Source: Comamonadaceae bacterium (GTDB lineage Bacteria > Pseudomonadota > Gammaproteobacteria > Burkholderiales > Burkholderiaceae_C). Taken from it: 37,754 bases of DNA. Made by a program: the position numbers and the translations under genes. The stretch covers positions 1-37,754 of the forward strand of contig CANFQF010000011.1 of NCBI GenBank assembly GCA_947449025.1, written 5' to 3'. The notes beneath the pieces were generated by a model. It did not search any database. It had not been told where the DNA came from and saw only the letters and a program-made list of their open reading frames with translations. Below, piece after piece: positions 28,475 through 37,499 of the stretch (the stretch's first letter is position 1; each line of letters starts with the position of its first letter).

Positions 28475-30547
28475 TCAACCTGCCGCCGGCGCGCTGCCGG
28501 CGGTCTCGCCGGCTTCGCCTTCGGAGAGGTCCACCGCAATCGCCAGTGGGCCAGCCACCGGCTCTTCGTCGTCAGCGCCGTCTTCCTCGGAGCCTGTGGG
28601 CAGTTCGGTGGCATCGAGCCGCTCAATGACCGTGCCGCCCAGATCCAGACCGATTTCGTCGATGTCGCCCAGGCGCACCCGCACGCGTGCGCCGCGTGGC
28701 AGGCCATTGGCGCCCATCACCGGCAGCACCAGGGGCAGGGCGTCTGCGCGGACCAAGCCCTCCTTGAACACGCTCGCCTCCAGCTCCTGGATGCCGCGTT
28801 GCGCCAGATAGCGCAGCGTCCAGAAACGCTCCATGCCGGCCTGGTAGCCGTTGTAGGCCGAGTAGGCGGCGTCAAAGCTGGAAATGATGGAAAAGAGCTC
28901 GGCGTCCTTGGGCTTGAAAGGCGCGGCCAGGGCAGCGGTGCGCCCGTGGCGCGCGGCGGCGATGATTTGCCACTGGTTCACCAGGTCGGTGTAGCGGCGC
29001 AGGGGCGAAGTGCTCCAGGCATAGCACCGGACCCCGATGCCGGCGTGGGGCGCCGGCTTGGTTCCCATGCGCACCTTCACACCTGGCGCCAAACTGGCCT
29101 GGCTGCGGTAGATGGCGGGCACGCCCAGGTCGGCCAGCCACTGGCCCCACTGGCTGTTGGCAAGAATCATGGCCTCGGCCACGATCAGGTCGAGCGGCGC
29201 CCCGCGCCGGCGCACGCTGATCTCGACCTGCTCATGGCCCGAGGGTTCATCACCCGCCGCATCGGCGAGGCGAAAGTTGTAGTCGGGCCGGTTGAAGGTT
29301 TCTGGCTTGCCCCGCACCACCTCGCGCAAGCCCTTGAGATGGCGCGCCAGCCGCCACAGAAAGGACAACTCGGGCCGCAGGGAGGCTGCGGGCTCGGGCA
29401 CCGGATCACCCTCGTACTCGGGGTTGCTCGGGTCCTCGAGCCAGGGCTCGGTGATGGTGGCGTCGAGCTTGTCGTGACGCAGGTTGTGGGCAATGGCCAC
29501 CCGCTCCAGTCGGGTGTCGGCGCCCTGGATCTCCAGCGTGGCTTCGTCAAAGCGCACGTACAGCGAGACGGCCGGGCAGTCGCGCCCCTCTTGCAGGGTG
29601 TAGGCCTGGACCACCGCGTCGGGCAGCATCGTGATCTTGTGCCCCGGCATGTAGACGGTGGACAGTCGCTGGCGCGCCACCTGGTCCAGCACCGAAGCCG
29701 GTGCCAGCGCCAGACCGGGCGCGGCGATGTGCACGCCCAGCGTGACGGTGCCCGAGCCCAGGCCCTGCACCGACAGCGCGTCGTCGATTTCGGTGGTGGC
29801 CGAATCGTCGATGGACCAGGCCGGCACCGGTGCCAGCGGCAGTTCTTCGGTGATCGGCGGCGCCTCCAGCGGGGGAAAGCCCGTGCCCTTGGGGAAATGC
29901 TCGAACAGGAAGCGCTTCCAGTGAAACTGGTAGGCCGATTCGATGGCGCCTGCCTGCCGCAGCAGGTTCAGGGGTGCCAGCTGGGTGCTGCGCGCAGCCT
30001 CGACCACCGCTTTGTATTCGGGCGAGTTTTTGTCTGGTTTGAACAGGATGCGAAAGAGCTGCTCGCGGATCGCGTCGGGGCATTGGCCGGACGCCAGCTC
30101 GCCTGCCCAGGTATCGATTTGGGCCTGGACCTGCTTTTTCTTTTCGATGGCGGCCAGGGCCTGTTGCACGATCTCGGCTGGCGCCTTGCGAAAGCGGCCT
30201 TTGCCGGCGCGCCGAAAGTAGTGCGGCGCCTCGAACAGGCGCAGTAAGGCGGCGGCCTGGTGTTCGAGGCTGGCCTGGGCGCTGAAGTACTCGCGTGCCA
30301 GGTCGGCAAAGCCGAACTCCTCGTCGGGGGCAAATTCCCAGGCCAGCTGAAGCTCGATCTCGGCGGCCAGGCCCTGGGCGGCCGCAAGCAGATCGGCGGG
30401 GCTCGGCTTTTCGAAACGCAGCAGGATGTGGGCGGATTTGACCTTGACCCGTTTGCCGGTCTCGAGCTCCACCTGAGCCGAGGCCTCGGCCTCGGACAGC
30501 ACGCGGCCGGTGTGGAATTTGCCGGCGTCTTCATACAGAACAAACAT
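28475..30547 (-). CDS. rnb: RNase II family 3'-5' exoribonuclease (RNB domain)
   Basis: The product is 690 residues from the ATG at 30547 (MFVLYEDAGKFHTGRVLSEA). The frame is open further upstream, but that part lies across the rodA promoter region and has no family resemblance. The RNB catalytic domain begins with WSIDDSATTEIDDALSV (about 295-312), carrying the metal-binding Asp cluster. It continues with VHIAAPG, ARQRLSTVYMPGHKITMLP and the C-terminal STSPLRRYTDLVNQWQI motif. A short acidic C-terminal tail follows. The N-terminal domains differ from E. coli RNase II, as in other betaproteobacterial members. It degrades single-stranded RNA hydrolytically. First gene of the rnb-tonB-mtgA transcription unit. 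Confidence 0.9.
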   Translation of the reverse strand: MFVLYEDAGKFHTGRVLSEAEASAQVELETGKRVKVKSAHILLRFEKPSPADLLAAAQGLAAEIELQLAWEFAPDEEFGFADLAREYFSAQASLEHQAAALLRLFEAPHYFRRAGKGRFRKAPAEIVQQALAAIEKKKQVQAQIDTWAGELASGQCPDAIREQLFRILFKPDKNSPEYKAVVEAARSTQLAPLNLLRQAGAIESAYQFHWKRFLFEHFPKGTGFPPLEAPPITEELPLAPVPAWSIDDSATTEIDDALSVQGLGSGTVTLGVHIAAPGLALAPASVLDQVARQRLSTVYMPGHKITMLPDAVVQAYTLQEGRDCPAVSLYVRFDEATLEIQGADTRLERVAIAHNLRHDKLDATITEPWLEDPSNPEYEGDPVPEPAASLRPELSFLWRLARHLKGLREVVRGKPETFNRPDYNFRLADAAGDEPSGHEQVEISVRRRGAPLDLIVAEAMILANSQWGQWLADLGVPAIYRSQASLAPGVKVRMGTKPAPHAGIGVRCYAWSTSPLRRYTDLVNQWQIIAAARHGRTAALAAPFKPKDAELFSIISSFDAAYSAYNGYQAGMERFWTLRYLAQRGIQELEASVFKEGLVRADALPLVLPVMGANGLPRGARVRVRLGDIDEIGLDLGGTVIERLDATELPTGSEEDGADDEEPVAGPLAIAVDLSEGEAGETAGSAPAAG

Positions 30548-30617
30548 CGTTGGATTGTCCCATGCAGGCTGGACGGAACGGGCCGGCGCCTGACACCACC
30601 AGCGATAATTCGCAACC

Positions 30618-31772
30618 ATGGCCGCCGTTATCGAAAGACCCTCCCTGTTGAAACGGGCTGCACCCCTGGTGCGGGGGTTCGACGGTCCGCTGGCCTTTGC
30701 CGTTTTCCTGCTCGCCTGCGCCGGTATGCTGACCATGTACTCCTCCGGTTTCGACCATGGCACGCGTTTTGTGGACCACGGCCGCAACATGCTGATTGCC
30801 GGCTTCGTGATGTTCGTCATCGCCCAGGTGCCGCCCCAGCGCCTGATGACCCTGGCGGTGCCGCTCTACACCCTGGGCGTGGCACTGTTGGTGGCGGTGG
30901 TGCTGTTTGGCATCACCAAGAAGGGGGCCAAGCGCTGGGTCAGCATCGGAATCGTCATCCAGCCCAGCGAGATCCTCAAGATCGCCATGCCGCTGATGCT
31001 GGCCTGGTGGTTCCAAAAGCGCGAAGGTCAGCTACGGCCGCTGGACTTTCTGGTCGCCGGCCTGCTGCTGGCCTTGCCGGTGGGCCTGATCGTCAAGCAG
31101 CCCGATTTGGGCACTGCCATCTTGGTTCTGGCCGCTGGCTTGTCCGTGATCTTTTTCGCCGGTCTGTCGTGGCGACTCATCGTGCCACCGCTGCTCCTGG
31201 GCCTCGCCGGCGTGATCTTGCTGGTGGTGTTCGAGTCGCAGCTGTGTGCGGCCGGGGTGAGCTGGCCGCTGCTCCACGACTACCAGCAGCAGCGGATTTG
31301 CACCTTGCTTGACCCGAGCAAGGACCCTCTGGGCAAGGGATTTCACATCCTCCAGGGCATGATCGCCATCGGATCGGGCGGCATCTTCGGCAAGGGCTTC
31401 ATGCAGGGGACGCAGACCCACCTCGAGTTCATCCCCGAGCGCACCACCGACTTCATCTTTGCCGCCTTTTCCGAGGAGTTCGGTCTGCTCGGTAACTTGC
31501 TGCTCATCGCCGCCTTTGTGGCCCTGGTGCTGCGCGGTCTGACCATCGCCTCCGAGGCCTCGACCGTCTTTTCCCGCTTGCTGGCGGGCGCAGTGACCAT
31601 GATTTTCTTCACCTATGCCTTTGTGAATATGGGCATGGTCAGCGGCATCTTGCCGGTGGTGGGGGTGCCATTGCCCTTCATCAGCTACGGTGGCACGGCC
31701 ATGGTGACCCTGGGCCTGGGCCTGGGGATTCTCATGTCCATTGCCCGCAGCAAGCGCCTGGTGCAGACATAA
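30618..31772 (+). CDS. rodA: Rod shape-determining SEDS glycosyltransferase RodA
   Basis: This is a 384-residue polytopic membrane protein with about ten hydrophobic segments. SEDS proteins polymerise lipid II during cell elongation together with PBP2. Landmarks are GAKRWVSIG and QPSEILKIAMPL in the first half, VKQPDLGTAILV with the conserved Asp of the SEDS active site, IPERTTDFIFAAFSEEFGLLG and VPLPFISYGGTAM near the end. The QPDLGT wording and length fit RodA rather than FtsW. It is divergent from the RNase gene with 70 bp between the starts; no mrdA or mre gene is adjacent. tldD follows after 7 bp. Confidence 0.92.
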   Translation: MAAVIERPSLLKRAAPLVRGFDGPLAFAVFLLACAGMLTMYSSGFDHGTRFVDHGRNMLIAGFVMFVIAQVPPQRLMTLAVPLYTLGVALLVAVVLFGITKKGAKRWVSIGIVIQPSEILKIAMPLMLAWWFQKREGQLRPLDFLVAGLLLALPVGLIVKQPDLGTAILVLAAGLSVIFFAGLSWRLIVPPLLLGLAGVILLVVFESQLCAAGVSWPLLHDYQQQRICTLLDPSKDPLGKGFHILQGMIAIGSGGIFGKGFMQGTQTHLEFIPERTTDFIFAAFSEEFGLLGNLLLIAAFVALVLRGLTIASEASTVFSRLLAGAVTMIFFTYAFVNMGMVSGILPVVGVPLPFISYGGTAMVTLGLGLGILMSIARSKRLVQT

Positions 31773-31779
31773 TCGTTCC

Positions 31780-33240
31780 ATGATTTCCCGCGAACCGACC
31801 CTCGAACGCCTGGACACCGCCCGGCGCTTGCTCCTCGAGCCTTTTGGTCTGACCGAGTCCGACCTCACGCGCGCCCTGAGCGAAATCACTTCGCACCGGG
31901 TCGACGACGCCGACCTCTACTTCCAGTACACCCGCAATGAGGGCTGGAGCCTGGAAGAGGGCATCGTCAAGACCGGCAGCTTCAGCATTGATCAGGGTGT
32001 GGGCGTGCGTGCGGTCAGCGGCGAAAAAACCGCCTTCGCCTATTCCGACGACATCTCCCTGGCCTCCCTGCTCGACGCCGCCCGGACGGTACGAGCAATC
32101 GGCGCAGCCGGCGGCAAGGCCCGGGTCAAAACCCCGGCACGCAAGGTGGCCGGCAGCCGCTCGCTCTATGCGGGCCTGGACCCCATCGCCACCCTCGACA
32201 GCACCGCCAAAGTCGAGCTTCTGGGCAAAGTTGAAAAGCTCGCCCGCGCCCGTGACCCGCGCATCGTGCAGGTCATGGCGGGTCTCGCCGCCGAATGGGA
32301 CGTGGTCATGGTGGCGCGCGCGGACGGCACCCTCGCCGCCGATGTGCGTCCGCTGGTGCGGCTGTCGGTGAGCGTCATCGCCGAGCAGGCGGGCCGGCGC
32401 GAGTCGGGTTCTGCCGGTGGCGGTGGCCGCTTCGGCTTAGCCTATTTCGACGACGCCCGTATCACCACCTATGTGGACGAGGCGGTCAAGGCCGCCCTGA
32501 CCAACCTCGAGTCGCGTCCGGCCCCGGCTGGCGAGATGACCGTGGTGCTCGGCCCGGGCTGGCCCGGCGTCTTGCTGCATGAGGCCATCGGCCATGGTCT
32601 CGAAGGCGACTTCAATCGCAAGGGCTCGAGTGCCTTTTCCGGCCGTATCGGTCAGCGGGTGGCGGCCAAGGGCGTCACCGTGCTCGATGACGGCACCATC
32701 GCCGACCGTCGCGGCTCGCTCAATGTCGACGACGAGGGCCATGCCAGCCAGCGCAACGTTCTCATCGAGGACGGCATTCTGCGCGGCTACATCCAGGACT
32801 CACTCAACGCCCGCCTCATGGGCGTGAAGGCCACCGGCAACGGCCGGCGCGAGAGCTATGCGCACATCCCCATGCCGCGCATGACCAACACCTACATGCT
32901 GGGTGGTGACAAGGCGCCCGAGGAGATCGTGGCCAGCATCAAAAAGGGGCTGTACGCCACCAACTTCGGTGGCGGTCAGGTCGATATCACTTCGGGCAAG
33001 TTTGTCTTTTCCGCCAGCGAGGCCTACTGGGTCGAAAACGGCAAGATCCTCTATCCGGTCAAGGGTGCCACCCTGGTTGGCAACGGCCCCGACGCGCTCA
33101 CCCGCGTGTCGATGATCGGCAATGACATGGCACTCGACTCAGGTGTGGGCACCTGCGGCAAGGAGGGCCAGAGCGTGCCTGTGGGCGTGGGCCAGCCCAC
33201 CCTGCGTATCGACGGGCTGACCGTTGGCGGCACCGCCTGA
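31780..33240 (+). CDS. tldD: Metalloprotease TldD
   Basis: This is a 486-residue cytoplasmic zinc metallopeptidase subunit; with TldE/PmbA it degrades unfolded or modified peptides and matures some peptide natural products. The metal site is LLHEAIGHGLEGD with H267, E268 and H272. Other family segments are QGVGVRAVSGEKTAFAYSDD at about residues 72-91 and NFGGGQVDITSGKFVFSASE near 400. The ATG at 31780 lies 7 nt after the rodA stop, suggesting co-transcription. PmbA is not in the window. Confidence 0.95.
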   Translation: MISREPTLERLDTARRLLLEPFGLTESDLTRALSEITSHRVDDADLYFQYTRNEGWSLEEGIVKTGSFSIDQGVGVRAVSGEKTAFAYSDDISLASLLDAARTVRAIGAAGGKARVKTPARKVAGSRSLYAGLDPIATLDSTAKVELLGKVEKLARARDPRIVQVMAGLAAEWDVVMVARADGTLAADVRPLVRLSVSVIAEQAGRRESGSAGGGGRFGLAYFDDARITTYVDEAVKAALTNLESRPAPAGEMTVVLGPGWPGVLLHEAIGHGLEGDFNRKGSSAFSGRIGQRVAAKGVTVLDDGTIADRRGSLNVDDEGHASQRNVLIEDGILRGYIQDSLNARLMGVKATGNGRRESYAHIPMPRMTNTYMLGGDKAPEEIVASIKKGLYATNFGGGQVDITSGKFVFSASEAYWVENGKILYPVKGATLVGNGPDALTRVSMIGNDMALDSGVGTCGKEGQSVPVGVGQPTLRIDGLTVGGTA

Positions 33241-33244
33241 GCCC

Positions 33245-33266
33245 GGGGCGGGGGCTGACCCGCCCC
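33245..33266 (+). terminator. First hairpin after tldD
   Basis: GGGGCGGG (33245-33252) and CCCGCCCC (33259-33266) form an 8-bp GC stem with a 6-nt loop, five bases after the tldD stop. Only a weak T-run follows, so it may be a pause or RNA-stabilising hairpin rather than a full terminator. Confidence 0.5.
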
Positions 33267-33358
33267 CGATTTGCCCGCGTCCATTCCGTTTTTTTCCGCG
33301 CCCACACCAGCCTCCCGCCACCTTCTTCCCCGATACCCATCGTTGCGCAGGTGACACC

Positions 33359-33384
33359 CCGGCCGGCAGGCCGGCCGGTTTTCT
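33359..33384 (+). terminator. Intrinsic terminator separating tldD from the aroG leader
   Basis: CCGGCCGG (33359-33366) pairs with CCGGCCGG (33371-33378) around the loop CAGG, followed at once by TTTTCT. It ends the rodA-tldD unit and lies just before the extended -10 element of the leader, so aroG is probably transcribed from its own promoter. Confidence 0.65.
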
Positions 33385-33385
33385 G

Positions 33386-33394
33386 TGCTAGATT
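33386..33394 (+). promoter_or_regulatory. Extended -10 promoter element for the aroG leader
   Basis: TGCTAGATT fits TGn followed by a -10 hexamer with four of six consensus bases. No good -35 is seen 17 bp upstream, as is usual for extended -10 promoters. Transcription would begin at about 33401, practically at the leader ATG (33402), giving a leaderless leader peptide; no ribosome site precedes that ATG. Confidence 0.45.
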
Positions 33395-33401
33395 CCCCCA
33401 C

Positions 33402-33473
33402 ATGCCTCGCGCGAACGTTTTCTTTTTTGCGTACTTTTATTTCTCCAGCCCCACCGGCGGCCGAGAGACCTGA
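33402..33473 (+). CDS. Phe/Tyr-rich leader peptide controlling DAHP synthase
   Basis: This is a 23-codon frame, ATG at 33402 to TGA at 33471-33473. The peptide starts MPRANV, carries FFFAYFYF (codons 33420-33443) and ends SSPTGGRET. Six Phe and two Tyr codons in the 24 bases are far beyond chance in a GC-rich genome where T-runs are rare. E. coli pheA and pheST leaders have the same type of run (known). The stop codon lies 10 bases after the copy of the terminator arm, where a terminating ribosome would cover it. Role inferred: a sensor of charged tRNA-Phe and tRNA-Tyr; slow translation spares aroG transcription. Not covered by a normal gene-length cutoff and easily missed. Confidence 0.85.
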   Translation: MPRANVFFFAYFYFSSPTGGRET

Positions 33474-33538
33474 GCGCAGCAAAAAGAAAGCACTCAAGAA
33501 TCCCGAAAAACCGCCGGTCCCCACCGGCGGTTTTTTTT
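33449..33538 (+). promoter_or_regulatory. Attenuator: mutually exclusive antiterminator and terminator
   Basis: CCCCACCGGCGG occurs twice, at 33449-33460 inside the leader frame and at 33519-33530 in the terminator. Both copies contain ACCGGCGG, which can pair with CCGCCGGT at 33511-33518. The first copy would form an antiterminator, the second the terminator. A ribosome stalled on the Tyr/Phe codons (up to 33443) leaves 33453-33460 free. A ribosome reaching the stop at 33471 covers it, letting the terminator form. No protector hairpin for an untranslated leader is evident. Confidence 0.8.
33506..33538 (+). terminator. Rho-independent terminator of the aroG attenuator
   Basis: The stem CCGCCGGT (33511-33518) / ACCGGCGG (33523-33530) is extended by five A-T pairs, has the loop CCCC and is followed by eight T (33531-33538). 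This is the strongest intrinsic terminator in the window. It lies 48 bp before the aroG start codon, so it must be bypassed for the gene to be expressed. Confidence 0.93.
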
Positions 33539-33586
33539 CGTCCCCTTCAATCTCTCTCGAATCACCACTTGAACAGGAGCTTCCCG

Positions 33587-34705
33587 ATGTCCGCCAAGCC
33601 CACCACCGATACGTCCTGGTATTCGCACCCTGCCGACAAGACTGGCCAGACCGACGATCAGCGTATCAAGGACATCACCGTGCTCCCCCCGCCCGAACAC
33701 CTCATCCGTTTTTTCCCCATCTCCGGCACGGCGGTGGAGCGGCTCATCACCGACACCCGCCGCCGCATCCACGACATCATGAGCGGCAAGGACGACCGCT
33801 TGCTGGTGGTCATCGGCCCTTGCTCCATCCATGACCCGGCCGCCGCCCTCGAGTACGCCCGTCGCCTCAAGCCGCTGCGTGAGCACTACGCCGACACGTT
33901 GGAGATCGTGATGCGGGTCTACTTCGAAAAGCCCCGAACCACGGTGGGTTGGAAGGGTCTGATCAACGACCCCTACCTCGACGAGAGCTACCGCATCGAC
34001 GAAGGCCTGCGCATCGCGCGCCAGCTCCTCATCGAAATCAACCGCCAGGGCCTGCCGGCCGGCAGCGAGTTCCTCGACACCATCTCGCCCCAGTACATCG
34101 GTGACCTGATCGCCTGGGGGGCCATCGGCGCCCGCACCACCGAGAGCCAGGTGCACCGCGAGCTGGCCTCGGGCCTGTCGGCGCCCATTGGCTTCAAGAA
34201 CGGCACGGACGGCAATATTCGCATCGCCACCGACGCCATCCAGGCGGCGGCCCGTGGCCACCATTTCCTGTCTGTCCACAAGAACGGCCAGGTCGCCATC
34301 GTGCAGACCCAGGGCAACAAGGACTGCCACGTCATCCTGCGCGGCGGCAAAGCGCCCAACTACGACGCGGACAGCGTGGCGGCTGCCTGCAAGGATCTGG
34401 CCGCTGCCGGTCTGCCGCCCAGCCTGATGGTGGACTGCAGCCACGCCAACAGCAGCAAGCAGCATGAGAAGCAGGTGGACGTCGCCGTGGACATTGCCCA
34501 GCAGATCAGCGCGGGTTCGCGCAGCATCTTCGGCGTGATGGTCGAGAGCCACCTAGAGGCCGGCGCACAGAAGTTCACCCCTGGCAAAGACGAGGTGAGC
34601 AAGCTGGTCTATGGCAAGAGCATCACCGATGCGTGCCTGGGCTGGGAGCCCTCGCAGCAGGTGCTGGCCACCCTGTCGGAGGCGGTGCGCAAGCGGCGCG
34701 CCTGA
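33587..34705 (+). CDS. aroG: 3-deoxy-7-phosphoheptulonate (DAHP) synthase, class I, AroG-type
   Basis: This 372-residue enzyme condenses phosphoenolpyruvate and erythrose 4-phosphate, the entry step of the shikimate pathway to Phe, Tyr and Trp. Diagnostic segments are VVIGPCSIHDP, MRVYFEKPRTTVGWKGLIND, FLDTISPQYIGDLIAWGAIGARTTESQVHRELASGLS, FKNGTDG, ILRGGKAPNYD and the C-terminal GKSITDACLGWE. They match the AroF/G/H (type I-alpha) family with full feedback domain. Which amino acid inhibits it cannot be fixed from sequence. The start at 33587 has AGGAG at 33575-33579, 7 nt upstream. The upstream attenuator with Phe and Tyr codons fits a Phe- and Tyr-responsive gene. Confidence 0.96.
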   Translation: MSAKPTTDTSWYSHPADKTGQTDDQRIKDITVLPPPEHLIRFFPISGTAVERLITDTRRRIHDIMSGKDDRLLVVIGPCSIHDPAAALEYARRLKPLREHYADTLEIVMRVYFEKPRTTVGWKGLINDPYLDESYRIDEGLRIARQLLIEINRQGLPAGSEFLDTISPQYIGDLIAWGAIGARTTESQVHRELASGLSAPIGFKNGTDGNIRIATDAIQAAARGHHFLSVHKNGQVAIVQTQGNKDCHVILRGGKAPNYDADSVAAACKDLAAAGLPPSLMVDCSHANSSKQHEKQVDVAVDIAQQISAGSRSIFGVMVESHLEAGAQKFTPGKDEVSKLVYGKSITDACLGWEPSQQVLATLSEAVRKRRA

Positions 34706-34789: not shown

Positions 34790-36217
34790 TCAGTGCGGCA
34801 ACGCCGCCAGCAGCTTGGCGTGAATGCCGCCAAAGCCGCCATTGCTCATGCAAAGAATCTGGTCGCCAGGCCGGGCTGCGGCCGCGACCTGGCGGACCAG
34901 GGTGTCGATGTCCCCCGCCACTTCGGCGCGCATTCCCATCGGGGCCAGCGCCTCTTTGGCGTCCCAGTCCAGCCCGCCGGCATGGCAAAAAGCCAGGTCA
35001 GCCTGCTCCAGGCTCCAGGGCAGCTGGGACTTCATCGTGCCCAGTTTCATGGTGTTTGAGCGAGGCTCGAACACCGCTAGGATCCGCTGACCTGGCTGCA
35101 GCTGCCGGCGCAGGCCGTCGACCGTGGTGCGGATGGCGGTGGGGTGATGGGCGAAGTCGTCAAAAACCGTGACCTCCTTCACCGTGCCGCGCTTTTCCAT
35201 GCGGCGCCGGACGTTCTGGAACTCGGCCAGCGCCGCCGCGGCGACCTCGGGCGGCACGCCGACATGCTCGGCGGCGGCAATCGTTGCCAAGGCGTTGAGC
35301 TGGTTGTGTACGCCGGAAATATCCCACTCGACCCGGCCCACTTTCTTGCCGCGTTGCAGCACATCGAAGGCATGGGGCTCTCCCTGCGCGCTGAAGTCGC
35401 TCACCGCGGCGCCGAAGCTGCGCACCTCGCTCCAGCAACCCTGGTGCAGCACCCGTGCCAGGCTCTCCTCGAGGCCGTTGACCACCAGCCGGCCCGAGGC
35501 CGGCACAGTGCGCACCAAGTGGTGGAACTGCCGCTCGATCGCCGCCAGGTTGTCAAAAATATCGGCGTGATCGAACTCCAGGTTATTGAGGATGGCGGTG
35601 CGCGGCCGGTAGTGGACGAACTTGCTGCGCTTGTCGAAAAAGGCAGTGTCGTACTCGTCGGCCTCAATGACGAAGAGGGGCCGCTGCTCAGTCGGGGCGC
35701 CCTCAGTGGGCAGCGAACCCCGCGTAGCGGGGAGCGTGGGGGCGCCTAGCCTGGCAGACACGCCAAAGTTCATCGGTACCCCGCCCACCAGAAAGCCTGG
35801 CGCCAGTCCGGCTCGCTCGAGCACCCAGGCCAGCATGGAGGTGGTGGTGGTCTTGCCATGGGTCCCCGCCACCGCCAGCACATGGCGCCCCTGCAGCACG
35901 TTCTCCAGCAACCACTGGGGGCCGCTCACATAGGGCTGGCCCGACTCGAGGATGGCCTCCATCAGCGGGAACTTCGGGCTTGCATCCGGGAGGCGGGCGC
36001 GCGACACCACATTGCCGATCACCCAGACGTCGGGCCTCTGCGCCATCTGGTCTGCGCCGAAGCCCTCGATCAGGTCGATGCCCAGCGCCCGCAACTGGTC
36101 GCTCATCGGGGGGTAGACGCCAGCGTCGCAGCCGGTCACCCGGTGGCCGGCCTCGCGGGCCAGTGCGGCCAGGCCGCCCATGAAGGTTCCGCAGATGCCC
36201 AGGATGTGAATATGCAT
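34790..36217 (-). CDS. mpl: UDP-N-acetylmuramate:L-Ala-gamma-D-Glu-meso-DAP ligase
   Basis: This 475-residue murein-recycling enzyme joins the recovered tripeptide to UDP-MurNAc in the cytoplasm. Mur-ligase landmarks: the nucleotide-binding start HILGICGTFMGGLA (residues 4-17), the ATP loop GTHGKTTTT (118-126), FVIEADEYDTAFFDKRSKFVHY, NNLEFDHADIF and DDFAHHPTAI. Wording such as EADEYDTAFFDKRSKFVHY is specific to Mpl rather than MurC. Residues about 159-180 are an extra loop absent from the E. coli protein, encoded by a palindromic repeat (35696-35746). The start is 119 bp from the divergent hypothetical gene. Confidence 0.96.
   Translation of the reverse strand: MHIHILGICGTFMGGLAALAREAGHRVTGCDAGVYPPMSDQLRALGIDLIEGFGADQMAQRPDVWVIGNVVSRARLPDASPKFPLMEAILESGQPYVSGPQWLLENVLQGRHVLAVAGTHGKTTTTSMLAWVLERAGLAPGFLVGGVPMNFGVSARLGAPTLPATRGSLPTEGAPTEQRPLFVIEADEYDTAFFDKRSKFVHYRPRTAILNNLEFDHADIFDNLAAIERQFHHLVRTVPASGRLVVNGLEESLARVLHQGCWSEVRSFGAAVSDFSAQGEPHAFDVLQRGKKVGRVEWDISGVHNQLNALATIAAAEHVGVPPEVAAAALAEFQNVRRRMEKRGTVKEVTVFDDFAHHPTAIRTTVDGLRRQLQPGQRILAVFEPRSNTMKLGTMKSQLPWSLEQADLAFCHAGGLDWDAKEALAPMGMRAEVAGDIDTLVRQVAAAARPGDQILCMSNGGFGGIHAKLLAALPH
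35696..35746 (-). repeat. REP-like palindromic element inside mpl
   Basis: The element is bounded by GGCGCC at 35696-35701 and 35741-35746 and has the central hairpin CCCCGC-GTA-GCGGGG (35718-35732). It resembles the short GC palindromes I recall from intergenic regions of Comamonadaceae, but here is read in frame as part of the APTLPATRGSLPTEGAPTEQ loop of Mpl. Confidence 0.65.
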
Positions 36218-36336: not shown

Positions 36337-36933
36337 ATGGAAAGCGCCGCCCACGAAATCGCTGCCGCTGCCGCCCGCCTCGTTGTCGAGGAAGGGCTGG
36401 AGTGGGGCCCCGCCAAGCGCCGTGCACTCAAGGTCCTGGGCCTGGGCCCGCGCACCGCGCTGCCGGCCAATGAGCTGGTGGAAGACGCGGTGCGCGAGTA
36501 CATCGACATCTTCTGCGCCGACACCCAGCCCGTCGAACTGGCCGCCCTGCGGCGCTTGGCGGCGGTCTGGATGGAGCGTCTGGCCGAGTTCCGCCCGCAC
36601 CTGGCTGGCGCGGTCTGGCACGGCACCGCCACCCGGCTGTCCGACATCTATCTGCAACTGTTTTGCGACGACCCCAAGTCCGCCGAGATCACCCTCATCG
36701 ACAAGGGCGTGGCATTTGAAGCCCGCAGCGTCCCGGGCTTTCGCGGCGAGCCGGTCGACGCCCTGAGCATGTCCGTCCGCTGCGCCGAACTCGGGGAGTC
36801 CATCGGCGTCCATTTGTTGATCCACGATCTGGACGACCTGCGCGGCGCCTTGCGGCCGGATGCCCGCGGACGCCCGCCTCGGGGTGACCTGGCCGATCTG
36901 CGGGCACGCCTGGACCAGGAGGCACCCGCGTGA
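36337..36933 (+). CDS. Conserved-type hypothetical protein
   Basis: The product is 198 residues. I do not recognise the family. The N-terminal third is helical (AAHEIAAAAARLVVEEGLEWGPAKRRALKVLGL), followed by an acidic segment with VEDAVREYIDIFCAD. The middle has ITLIDKGVAFEARSVPGFRGEPVDALSM, which looks like strand-turn elements. The C-terminal end is DLADLRARLDQ. It has no signal peptide or membrane segment and so is probably cytoplasmic. Divergent from mpl (119 bp) and overlapping the TlpA-like gene by 4 bp (GTGA), suggesting co-expression. A similar small gene often accompanies mpl in betaproteobacteria, as far as I recall. Start: the ATG at 36337 fits better than earlier in-frame codons because it leaves a promoter gap. 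Confidence 0.8.
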   Translation: MESAAHEIAAAAARLVVEEGLEWGPAKRRALKVLGLGPRTALPANELVEDAVREYIDIFCADTQPVELAALRRLAAVWMERLAEFRPHLAGAVWHGTATRLSDIYLQLFCDDPKSAEITLIDKGVAFEARSVPGFRGEPVDALSMSVRCAELGESIGVHLLIHDLDDLRGALRPDARGRPPRGDLADLRARLDQEAPA

Positions 36934-37499
36934 GCAGCGCCAACGATCAGCCGAGCCGGAAAGCCCCGACGACCGGACGGCGGCGCGTGCTGCTGGGCGG
37001 CGTGGCCCTGGCTGCGGCCGCAGCTGGCGCAGGGCTGGCCAGTTGGCGGCTGCGTCCGGGCAAGCCGGTGCCGGAGGCAGTGCAGGCGCTGTGGAAACTC
37101 ACGCTGTCCACCCCCGAGGGGCCGCCTCTCGCCCTGGCTGAACTGCGTGGGGGACCGCTTCTGCTCAATTTCTGGGCGACCTGGTGCCCGCCCTGTGTGG
37201 AGGAGCTCCCGCTTCTTGATGCTTTCTACCGCCAAAATTCGGCATCTGGATGGAAAGTTCTCGGGTTGGCGATTGACCAGCCTGCCTCGGTGAAGCGCTT
37301 CCTGGCCCAGCGACCGGTCGGGTTCCCCATGGTGCTGGCTGGTTTTGAGGGCAGCGAGTTAGCACGCAAGCTGGGTAATGAGACGGGTGGATTGCCGTTT
37401 TCTGTCATTTTGGGGGCGGATGGCTCCATCATCGACAAAAAAATGGGGCAATTAACGGCGGAGATGCTTGCCCGCTGGAAGCAGGCGACGCCAATCTAA
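36930..37499 (+). CDS. TlpA-family thiol-disulfide oxidoreductase
   Basis: The product is 189 residues, starting at a GTG overlapping the previous stop. The N-terminus is a signal anchor: TGRRRVLLGGVALAAAAAGAG (about 15-35), with a twin-arginine-like RRRVLLG motif, so export may be by Tat or Sec. The mature part is a thioredoxin fold with active site FWATWCPPCVEE (Cys at 86 and 89) and the cis-Pro loop GGLPFSVILG. TlpA/ResA-like proteins keep periplasmic cysteines reduced, often for cytochrome c maturation. No cytochrome gene is adjacent. The next gene is accB, 181 bp downstream; I recall aroQ at this place in some relatives, but it is not here. Confidence 0.88.
   Translation: MSSANDQPSRKAPTTGRRRVLLGGVALAAAAAGAGLASWRLRPGKPVPEAVQALWKLTLSTPEGPPLALAELRGGPLLLNFWATWCPPCVEELPLLDAFYRQNSASGWKVLGLAIDQPASVKRFLAQRPVGFPMVLAGFEGSELARKLGNETGGLPFSVILGADGSIIDKKMGQLTAEMLARWKQATPI

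Follow-up and report, generated by a model that had tools for sequence, protein, structure and literature searches.

What sets the expression of aroG, the 3-deoxy-7-phosphoheptulonate (DAHP) synthase gene of the Comamonadaceae bacterium represented by assembly GCA_947449025.1, and does the device lie in the gap between this gene (33587–34705) and its upstream neighbour tldD (31741–33240)? The question was raised by an earlier note on contig CANFQF010000011.1, in which a complete attenuator was proposed for this gap. The term window denotes here the entire stretch of 37,754 nucleotides (nt) of that contig, and all coordinates are window positions. The gap holds a compact unit of a leader peptide open reading frame (ORF), alternative RNA arms and an intrinsic terminator, all on the forward strand like aroG itself. 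The unit very probably is a transcription attenuator of the ribosome-mediated kind, by which aroG expression is predicted to be adjusted to the supply of charged aromatic tRNA. The observation made in the earlier note was confirmed, and its reading as an attenuator is supported by the sequence comparisons described below.

The leader peptide MPRANVFFFAYFYFSSPTGGRET is encoded by 23 codons (33402–33473, with the ATG at 33402 and the TGA stop at 33471–33473), as had been claimed; the assignment rests on the ORF reading and on orthologues. Its control codons, Phe Phe Phe Ala Tyr Phe Tyr Phe (33420–33443), are among the stall positions that leave arm B free, and seven of the eight specify phenylalanine (Phe, five codons) or tyrosine (Tyr, two codons); the earlier count of two Tyr codons was right and that of six Phe codons was a miscount. 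Arm B, the 5′ arm of the antiterminator (33449–33460, core 33453–33460), is the first copy of a direct repeat of 12 nt, CCCCACCGGCGG, which recurs exactly, as had been reported, at 33519–33530. Arm D (33506–33518) is shared, being according to folds and arm comparison the partner either of B in the antiterminator or of arm E (33523–33530) in the terminator, and arm E with the adjoining T run forms the 3′ half of the intrinsic terminator (33523–33538). The latter consists of a D:E stem of 13 base pairs (bp; 33506–33535, −20.2 kcal/mol) with a T run up to 33538, and the ATG of aroG at 33587 begins 48 bp after this run; both the strength and the distance claimed earlier were thus reproduced. The B:D antiterminator with its inner helix (33449–33517) was calculated at −21.8 kcal/mol, and the RNA from 33386 to 33540 at −52 kcal/mol (z −4.6), a value equalled by 0/200 shuffles. 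What the sequences show directly is this anatomy, including arms complementary to each other and the placement of the codons, and its conservation upstream of aroG. A simple terminator scan of the window did not list the aroG-leader terminator, which is visible in the RNA fold.

A chance ORF was rejected as an explanation. The leader is the sole ATG ORF of the window (n=269, 10–45 codons, both strands) with at least five codons for Phe, Tyr or tryptophan (Trp) per nine codons, and it has seven. In dinucleotide shuffles of 33241–33586, seven such codons were reached in 0/5000 cases and six in 6/5000. Among the 3178 ORFs of loci L031–L110, those with at least six aromatic codons in nine occur only as leaders, in 79/80 loci; 75 of these 79 leaders lie in the expected zone and four in loci truncated by the contig end.

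The gene downstream is a DAHP synthase gene, as had been stated, with 548.9 bits against the aroFGH model TIGR00034 (cut-off 173.2). The AroG-specific model NF006723 gave 551.7 bits, slightly below its cut-off of 568, and aroG is therefore used as a working name. One AroG-type DAHP synthase gene was found in the genome itself (assembly 93% complete). At least two AroG matches were present in 25/36 relatives of the same genus; in G017 and G027 these are fragments of a single gene. Second aroG copies were rejected as targets of the attenuator, the leader with terminator being found in none of 20 further upstream regions (19 second copies and one distant sole copy).

For comparison within the family, AroG was found in 57/61 genomes (the genome itself and 60 relatives), and 80 named loci were added from genome contigs, mostly of Comamonadaceae (Limnohabitans, Hydrogenophaga, Variovorax, Acidovorax, Ramlibacter, Curvibacter and Polaromonas), which gave 110 loci in total. 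Some species are included twice from two collections; alignment A1 comprises 84 less similar sequences. An ATG ORF rich in Phe and Tyr codons was found upstream of aroG in 108/110 loci. The two exceptions are L025, which has a broken frame (see below), and L099, for which 178 bases were available 5′ of aroG and no leader lies within them. All 108 leaders contain Tyr and at least three Phe codons and 103 contain Trp; the usual core resembles YFFGYFWFS or AFYFFYFWFS. The leader thus usually reads Phe, Tyr and Trp, whereas that of the window reads Phe and Tyr only. Trp is missing from five leaders, that of the window and those of four Limnohabitans-type loci. Where the window has FFFAYFYFSS, its two nearest relatives (95% AroG identity) have FFFGYFWYFSS, and the window is three bases short at this point of the alignment; a Trp codon was therefore probably lost in the window lineage. 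At the four Limnohabitans-type loci (L048, L075, L083 and L104), Ala stands at the site of the Trp codon of others (YFAF), apparently a second loss.

The comparison was extended with a covariance model built from the family leaders (R1), which was searched in 300 genomes of the order and gave a match at E 0.01 or better in 103. Of the 80 full-length matches, 76, among them the window, are followed by aroG, and 70 of the 76 contain an acceptable leader ORF; at least 14 family codes are covered. Four weak full-length matches (L224, L225, L228 and L229) have no aroG within the fetched stretch. Of the partial, terminator-only matches of R1, the ten that were fetched (L231–L240) are without aroG; they were rejected as members and taken as chance. 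From the 71 leader ORFs found by script at the 76 loci, L155 (the window again), L207 (terminator picked) and L221 (no terminator by the rule) were dropped, and the remaining 68 were combined with the 108 family leaders into a set of 176. At five loci with aroG (L184, L212, L219, L223 and L226) no ATG ORF satisfied the rule; by eye, L184 and L219 resemble GTG starts, and L223 and L226 have few aromatic codons.

Two properties of these leaders separate what is kept as peptide from what is kept as RNA. Codons for Phe are present in all 176 leaders, for Tyr in 170 and for Trp in 135; TTT and TTC are both used, as are TAT and TAC, which indicates that it is the encoded amino acid that is conserved at the control codons. 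The arm core (GGCGG in B and E, CCGCC in D) is found nearly everywhere, and terminator arms are present in 176/177 leaders. The exact GGCGG motif, contained in 166/176 leaders, occurs in all three phases relative to the leader frame (phase 0 in 99 and phase 2 in seven family leaders; phases 2, 0 and 1 in 46, nine and five order-wide leaders), and the arm therefore appears to be kept as RNA and not as peptide. Leaders with a tail in another frame (PAVER or PAVES) or with a stop directly after the GG codons (Acidovorax type) agree with this (L006, L009, L022, L061 and L098; L077, L091, L097, L102, L103, L105 and L109): judged from the sequences, the peptide tail is free and the RNA arm fixed. 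TTT makes up 65% of the Phe codons in the family leaders (L001–L110) versus 14% in their aroG genes; such a bias might reduce the speed of the ribosome or limit base pairing of the codon run.

The pairing of the arms was examined for compensatory change. In A1 the stem hardly varies, so that RNAalifold recovered the terminator but detected no covariation; the order-wide set was therefore used. At the position adjoining the core (126 distinct rows drawn from 170 of the 176 leaders), D:E is G–C in 88 rows and A–T in 32, with 120 Watson–Crick pairs against a shuffle maximum of 94; for B:D the corresponding numbers are 71 (C–G), 24 (T–A) and 95 against a maximum of 75. In a second alignment (A2), comprising 46 of 49 listed stretches (L192, L211 and L218 were excluded), 91.3% of the antiterminator cells are paired. 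Double-sided changes that preserve pairing are seen in 27 cells of the terminator (7.8 in shuffles) and in 16 of the antiterminator (8.6 in shuffles), with 0/500 shuffles as high in either case, and the covariation score was matched by 0/500 shuffles for the terminator and 2/500 for the antiterminator. A2 is not independent of the earlier sets, because 41 of its 46 sequences come from them. The mutually exclusive pairing of D with B or E that the earlier note had described is accordingly conserved; on these alignments the pairing is well kept, and the covariation is real but thin. The antiterminator interior folds better than shuffles (mean z −1.18, with 12 of 72 interiors above zero) and has no sequence common between families. 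On the whole, the alignment of orthologues that had been suggested as a check came out in favour of the attenuator: aromatic run, antiterminator arm and terminator are kept, and changes in the stems retain pairing.

Transcription of the unit is predicted to start from an extended −10 promoter element, TGTGCTAGATT (33384–33394), which lies 7 nt upstream of the leader ATG. In 106/108 family leaders the −10 element ends 6–8 nt upstream of the ATG, and in the other two (L020 and L101) an in-frame ATG is found at this distance; among the 68 order-wide leaders, 39 have the element at 6–10 nt. A Shine–Dalgarno-like sequence 5′ of the leader ATG was seen in 0/108 family leaders and in 1/68 order-wide leaders. 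The −10 element close to the ATG and the lack of a Shine–Dalgarno site together suggest that the leader is probably leaderless, with a predicted transcript start on the A of the ATG or directly adjacent to it. Leaderless mRNAs mapped in Bradyrhizobium japonicum have promoters with an extended −10 element, TGnTA, according to the accessible part of that report (PMC4842269); the aroG leader has the same element, the start being mapped there and predicted here. A sigma-70 scan that required a −35 element listed no promoter. The −35 region is occupied by a G+C-rich hairpin with a short T tail 3′ of tldD (33359–33378, + strand, 8-bp stem, loop of 4). Hairpin and T tail (33359–33382) abut the −10 element, so that the end of tldD and the aroG promoter are nested.

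The decision between the two folds was modelled co-transcriptionally by folding the RNA from the front edge of the ribosome (assumed at P-site start + 16 nt) to the end of D, with E not yet made. With the ribosome stalled at an aromatic codon, the antiterminator formed in 1189/1257 cases (Phe 765/814, Tyr 287/300, Trp 137/143), and with the ribosome at the stop codon in 0/176; in the window, all seven aromatic codons gave the antiterminator. The outcome switches sharply once the ribosome edge enters B by 3–6 nt, and the positions immediately preceding this point are mostly taken up by aromatic codons. The geometry proposed in the earlier note, in which a stalled ribosome leaves 33453–33460 free and a terminating ribosome covers it, is hence borne out by this model; folding of the whole RNA did not reproduce it. 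Equilibrium folding of the complete RNA yielded almost exclusively the terminator; it was rejected for testing the switch, and the fold ending at arm D took its place. Downstream of the leader stop, segment C (33475–33491, approximate) is the pairing partner of the Phe-codon run if the ribosome is absent; it was seen in window folds only and was rejected as a conserved 1:2 stem. In the window without a ribosome, B is locally paired within the stem of the codon run and the post-stop bases.

The course of events would be as follows. The extended −10 promoter would direct RNA synthesis to begin at the leader ATG or immediately beside it, and ribosomes would load onto this leaderless end. A shortage of charged tRNA-Phe or tRNA-Tyr (or, in most relatives, tRNA-Trp) would make a ribosome stall in the codon run with its edge just short of B, B:D would pair once D is made, and the polymerase would read into aroG. 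When the supply is good, the ribosome would reach the stop codon and cover B, D:E would pair, and transcription would end near 33538 with the release of an RNA of about 137 nt. The leaderless start, the stalling, the read-through and the identity of the amino acids that matter in vivo are what we infer from the arrangement.

The search was also carried beyond the order. R1 applied to 200 genomes of the phylum gave 11 matches at 1e-4 or better, of which five lie outside the order, all upstream of aroG. A broader model built from the 46 leaders of A2 (R2) matched 61/398 genomes at 1e-3. Thirty-two of 50 loci were inspected (families f1, f8, f32 and f44 were skipped as seen already; the partial phylum matches in G477, G562, G628, G693 and G754 were not fetched), and 27 of these 32, outside the nearer families of the window, lie upstream of aroG with a leader (f63 6, f216 9, f219 10 and f212 2). 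The remaining matches are L330 and L332, which are members of the Rfam family Phe_leader (120.8 and 79 bits), and L333–L335, which are without a leader. One more locus (L285, f223) brings the leaders upstream of aroG outside the order to 28; all 28 contain Phe, Tyr and Trp codons, and one has a GTG start. These leaders show range and not frequency, because the search model was built from such leaders. The families f212–f223 appear to be Alphaproteobacteria, and the leader is, on the sequences found, not confined to the order of the window. Independently of the model, a leader was found in 7/19 aroG upstream regions of other families of the order.

Several results weigh against the attenuator as set out above. 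Where aroG regions were sampled widely, the leader is often missing: no such leader was found at 12/19 aroG loci of other families of the order (some with 49–56% AroG identity) or at 39/40 aroG loci of other orders of the class, these 40 being taken, mostly as best-scoring, from 104 genomes with a match; L250 has the sole leader among them, and four further loci have the ORF only, with no terminator. Some loci also deviate. L025 (G014) has intact arms and an intact terminator (about 180–90 nt before aroG), but its leader frame is interrupted within the aromatic codons; an error in sequencing the T run is possible, and relatives have intact copies. The earlier note had named homologous leaders without aromatic codons as evidence against its proposal, and one such case was met upstream of aroG: L223 (G327) has the arms and one remaining Phe codon, and L226 (G237) has the arms and three aromatic codons (both counts by eye). 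These two are exceptions among 76 and may be decayed or retuned sensors; they come nearest to a counterexample. As to the leaderless start, the −10 element lies at 22–30 nt in five of the 68 order-wide leaders, and none is recognisable by the rule in 24. The covariation is confined as well: the arm core is nearly invariant, change is concentrated mainly at the single adjoining position, and the other outer arm positions are at or near shuffle level, one of them, four bases from the core, below it. The counts least misled by kinship are those of changed pairs and of pair types. Pairs changed on both sides were reached by 31/500 shuffles for the terminator and by 465/500 for the antiterminator, and pair types by 486/500 and 500/500, respectively. 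On the AroG tree, D changed at least six times, followed by B in about 5/6 and by E in 5/6 independent pairs (p 0.06 each). The folding models add three reservations. Non-aromatic stalls upstream of B also give the antiterminator, since the model is positional; amino acid specificity is in the model set by which codons stand upstream of B. With the ribosome absent the co-transcriptional result is mixed (antiterminator in 82/176). Whole-RNA folding favours the terminator in 173/176 cases without a ribosome and in 1093/1257 at aromatic stalls; the switch would therefore be kinetic, decided as the RNA is made.

The same observations bear on what else the unit might be. The leader peptide might stall within the exit tunnel and sense a free aromatic amino acid or metabolite instead of uncharged tRNA. 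Such arrest has a model in TnaC, a leader peptide that stalls in response to tryptophan, arrest peptides do control the transcription of downstream genes, and the core of the leader peptide is conserved within the family. Arrest peptides need fixed residues, however, and between families only the aromatic content is kept here, with residues varying in order and number and the C-terminal part read in different frames; stalling on excess would moreover be expected to raise expression at good supply, the wrong sign for a biosynthetic gene. Arrest of this type is thus considered extremely unlikely. Little credit can likewise be given to the notion that the terminator merely fixes the level of read-through into aroG and that the ORF senses nothing: the terminator is strong and is favoured by whole-RNA folding in nearly every state, yet a fixed level needs neither an aromatic run nor arm B, both of which are present in 176 leaders at similar spacing, and the upstream gene could already be closed by the hairpin 3′ of tldD.

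A further alternative is that the terminated RNA of about 137 nt, or the peptide, acts mainly in trans and that attenuation of aroG is secondary. The precedent is rnTrpL/peTrpL of Sinorhizobium meliloti, likewise the product of a leaderless attenuator in the accessible part of the literature (PMC7298713). In the family, the sequence GAGAG 3′ of arm B is invariant across all 84 sequences of A1, which speaks for this reading. Other families lack this conservation of GAGAG, for which pairing partners exist both inside the antiterminator and in the leader (TTCTC), and every full-length match with an acceptable leader ORF containing Phe, Tyr and Trp codons sits upstream of aroG; a role mainly in trans is therefore judged very unlikely. 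The full invariance of GAGAG looks like more than either of its possible partners needs. The boldest extension of the attenuator reading would be a phylum-wide, leaderless gate that opens when any aromatic amino acid is short, with a Phe/Tyr/Trp leader on the first enzyme of the common pathway in many families and several proteobacterial classes, and in which the RNA of about 137 nt set free by termination would, like the peptide, act in trans as well; in this full form it is rather doubtful.

The mechanism itself is classical attenuation of a known kind. In the enterobacterial leaders ilvL and thrL, one leader senses several amino acids of one pathway; unlike the aroG leader, they serve the branched-chain and threonine pathways and are not leaderless. 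No Rfam 15 family (T-box, riboswitch or other) gave a gathering-score match anywhere in the window. Membership in RF01859 (Phe_leader) was rejected at 21.7 bits against a cut-off of 55, with 0 matches in the genome itself, as was the best weak match, RF00506 (Thr_leader; 23.5 bits, E 0.021, cut-off 55). RF01859, the enterobacterial pheL of pheA, has in common with the present leader its richness in Phe codons and the terminator/antiterminator switch, and the weak matches of R2 to its members L330 and L332 point to a shared plan; the aroG leader differs in the gene, in the additional Tyr and usually Trp codons and in having no Shine–Dalgarno site.

A precedent for a Phe–Tyr leader on a DAHP synthase gene is aroR of Corynebacterium glutamicum, the leader of the aroF operon, described in the accessible text as a Phe-Tyr-Phe peptide (Mentz 2013, PMC4046766). 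A review, likewise accessible in part, states with reference to Neshat 2014 that it responds to Phe limitation and that Tyr availability is without effect (PMC11802643). By description, both systems have a short Phe/Tyr leader, a DAHP synthase gene and ribosome-mediated attenuation; C. glutamicum is an actinobacterium, and the available text names no Trp codon. The earlier note had named a Phe plus Tyr leader on a betaproteobacterial DAHP synthase gene as not known to be described; in the literature searched none was found for this aroG, but the kind is not without precedent. In S. meliloti, according to the sections at hand, the 5′ end of the trpL attenuator RNA coincides with the AUG of the leader ORF (PMC7298713, PMC10117765); it resembles the aroG leader in being leaderless (a start reported there and predicted here) and differs in lying upstream of trpE(G) and serving tryptophan. 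The uORFC-13-1 motif upstream of aroF in Acholeplasma, with a ribosome-binding site and at least one Phe codon in the part of the paper available (Brewer 2021, PMC8632094), also combines a small ORF with Phe codons and a terminator before a DAHP synthase gene, but is limited to 24 sequences from Acholeplasma and the environment. In two Vibrio species, putative attenuators precede a DAHP synthase–tyrA operon in a paper (PMC1173090) whose accessible text is restricted to tyrA operons and follows a different gene nomenclature, and Shewanella aroF is assigned an 'attenuator sensing tyr-tRNA' in a partly accessible 2009 study, after an E. coli hypothesis of 1980 (PMC2659441). Attenuation has thus been proposed at a proteobacterial DAHP synthase gene of the tyrosine type; these cases differ from the present one in concerning the aroF-type copy in an operon with tyrA, with no leader peptide given in the text available. 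The main text of a genome-wide terminator survey, as far as accessible, does not name aroG (PMC2965389), and the literature searched, from which subscription papers were mostly out of reach, describes no proteobacterial aroG leader of this type. Within the reach of these searches, the following points are new: three amino acids are read in most relatives, the start is likely leaderless, the device is spread through the phylum, and this genome probably lost the Trp codon.

In enterobacteria, the genes of the DAHP synthase isozymes are repressed by TyrR and TrpR, as stated in the accessible part of the review cited above (PMC11802643); here, a single RNA device that reads all three aromatic amino acids at once would govern one such gene in many other proteobacteria. 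The natural variants (Trp kept, Trp lost, different spacings) form a panel for studying how a leader weighs several amino acids, and the leader would offer a simple handle on the flux into aromatic compounds. If the leaderless start is true, polymerase and ribosome would be coupled without a Shine–Dalgarno site in yet another group.

The wider neighbourhood comprises an RNase II-like ORF of 781 codons (assigned by reading), rodA and mpl (both above their cut-offs) and a TlpA/ResA-like gene (below family cut-offs) at 28475–30820 (−), 30618–31772 (+), 34790–36217 (−) and 36930–37499 (+), respectively. In AroG itself, the N-terminal stretch of about 20 residues precedes the family profiles, the match of which starts at residues 19–23 (window 33587–33650 for the stretch), and its conservation in relatives sufficed for its use as a search pattern (WYSHPADK).

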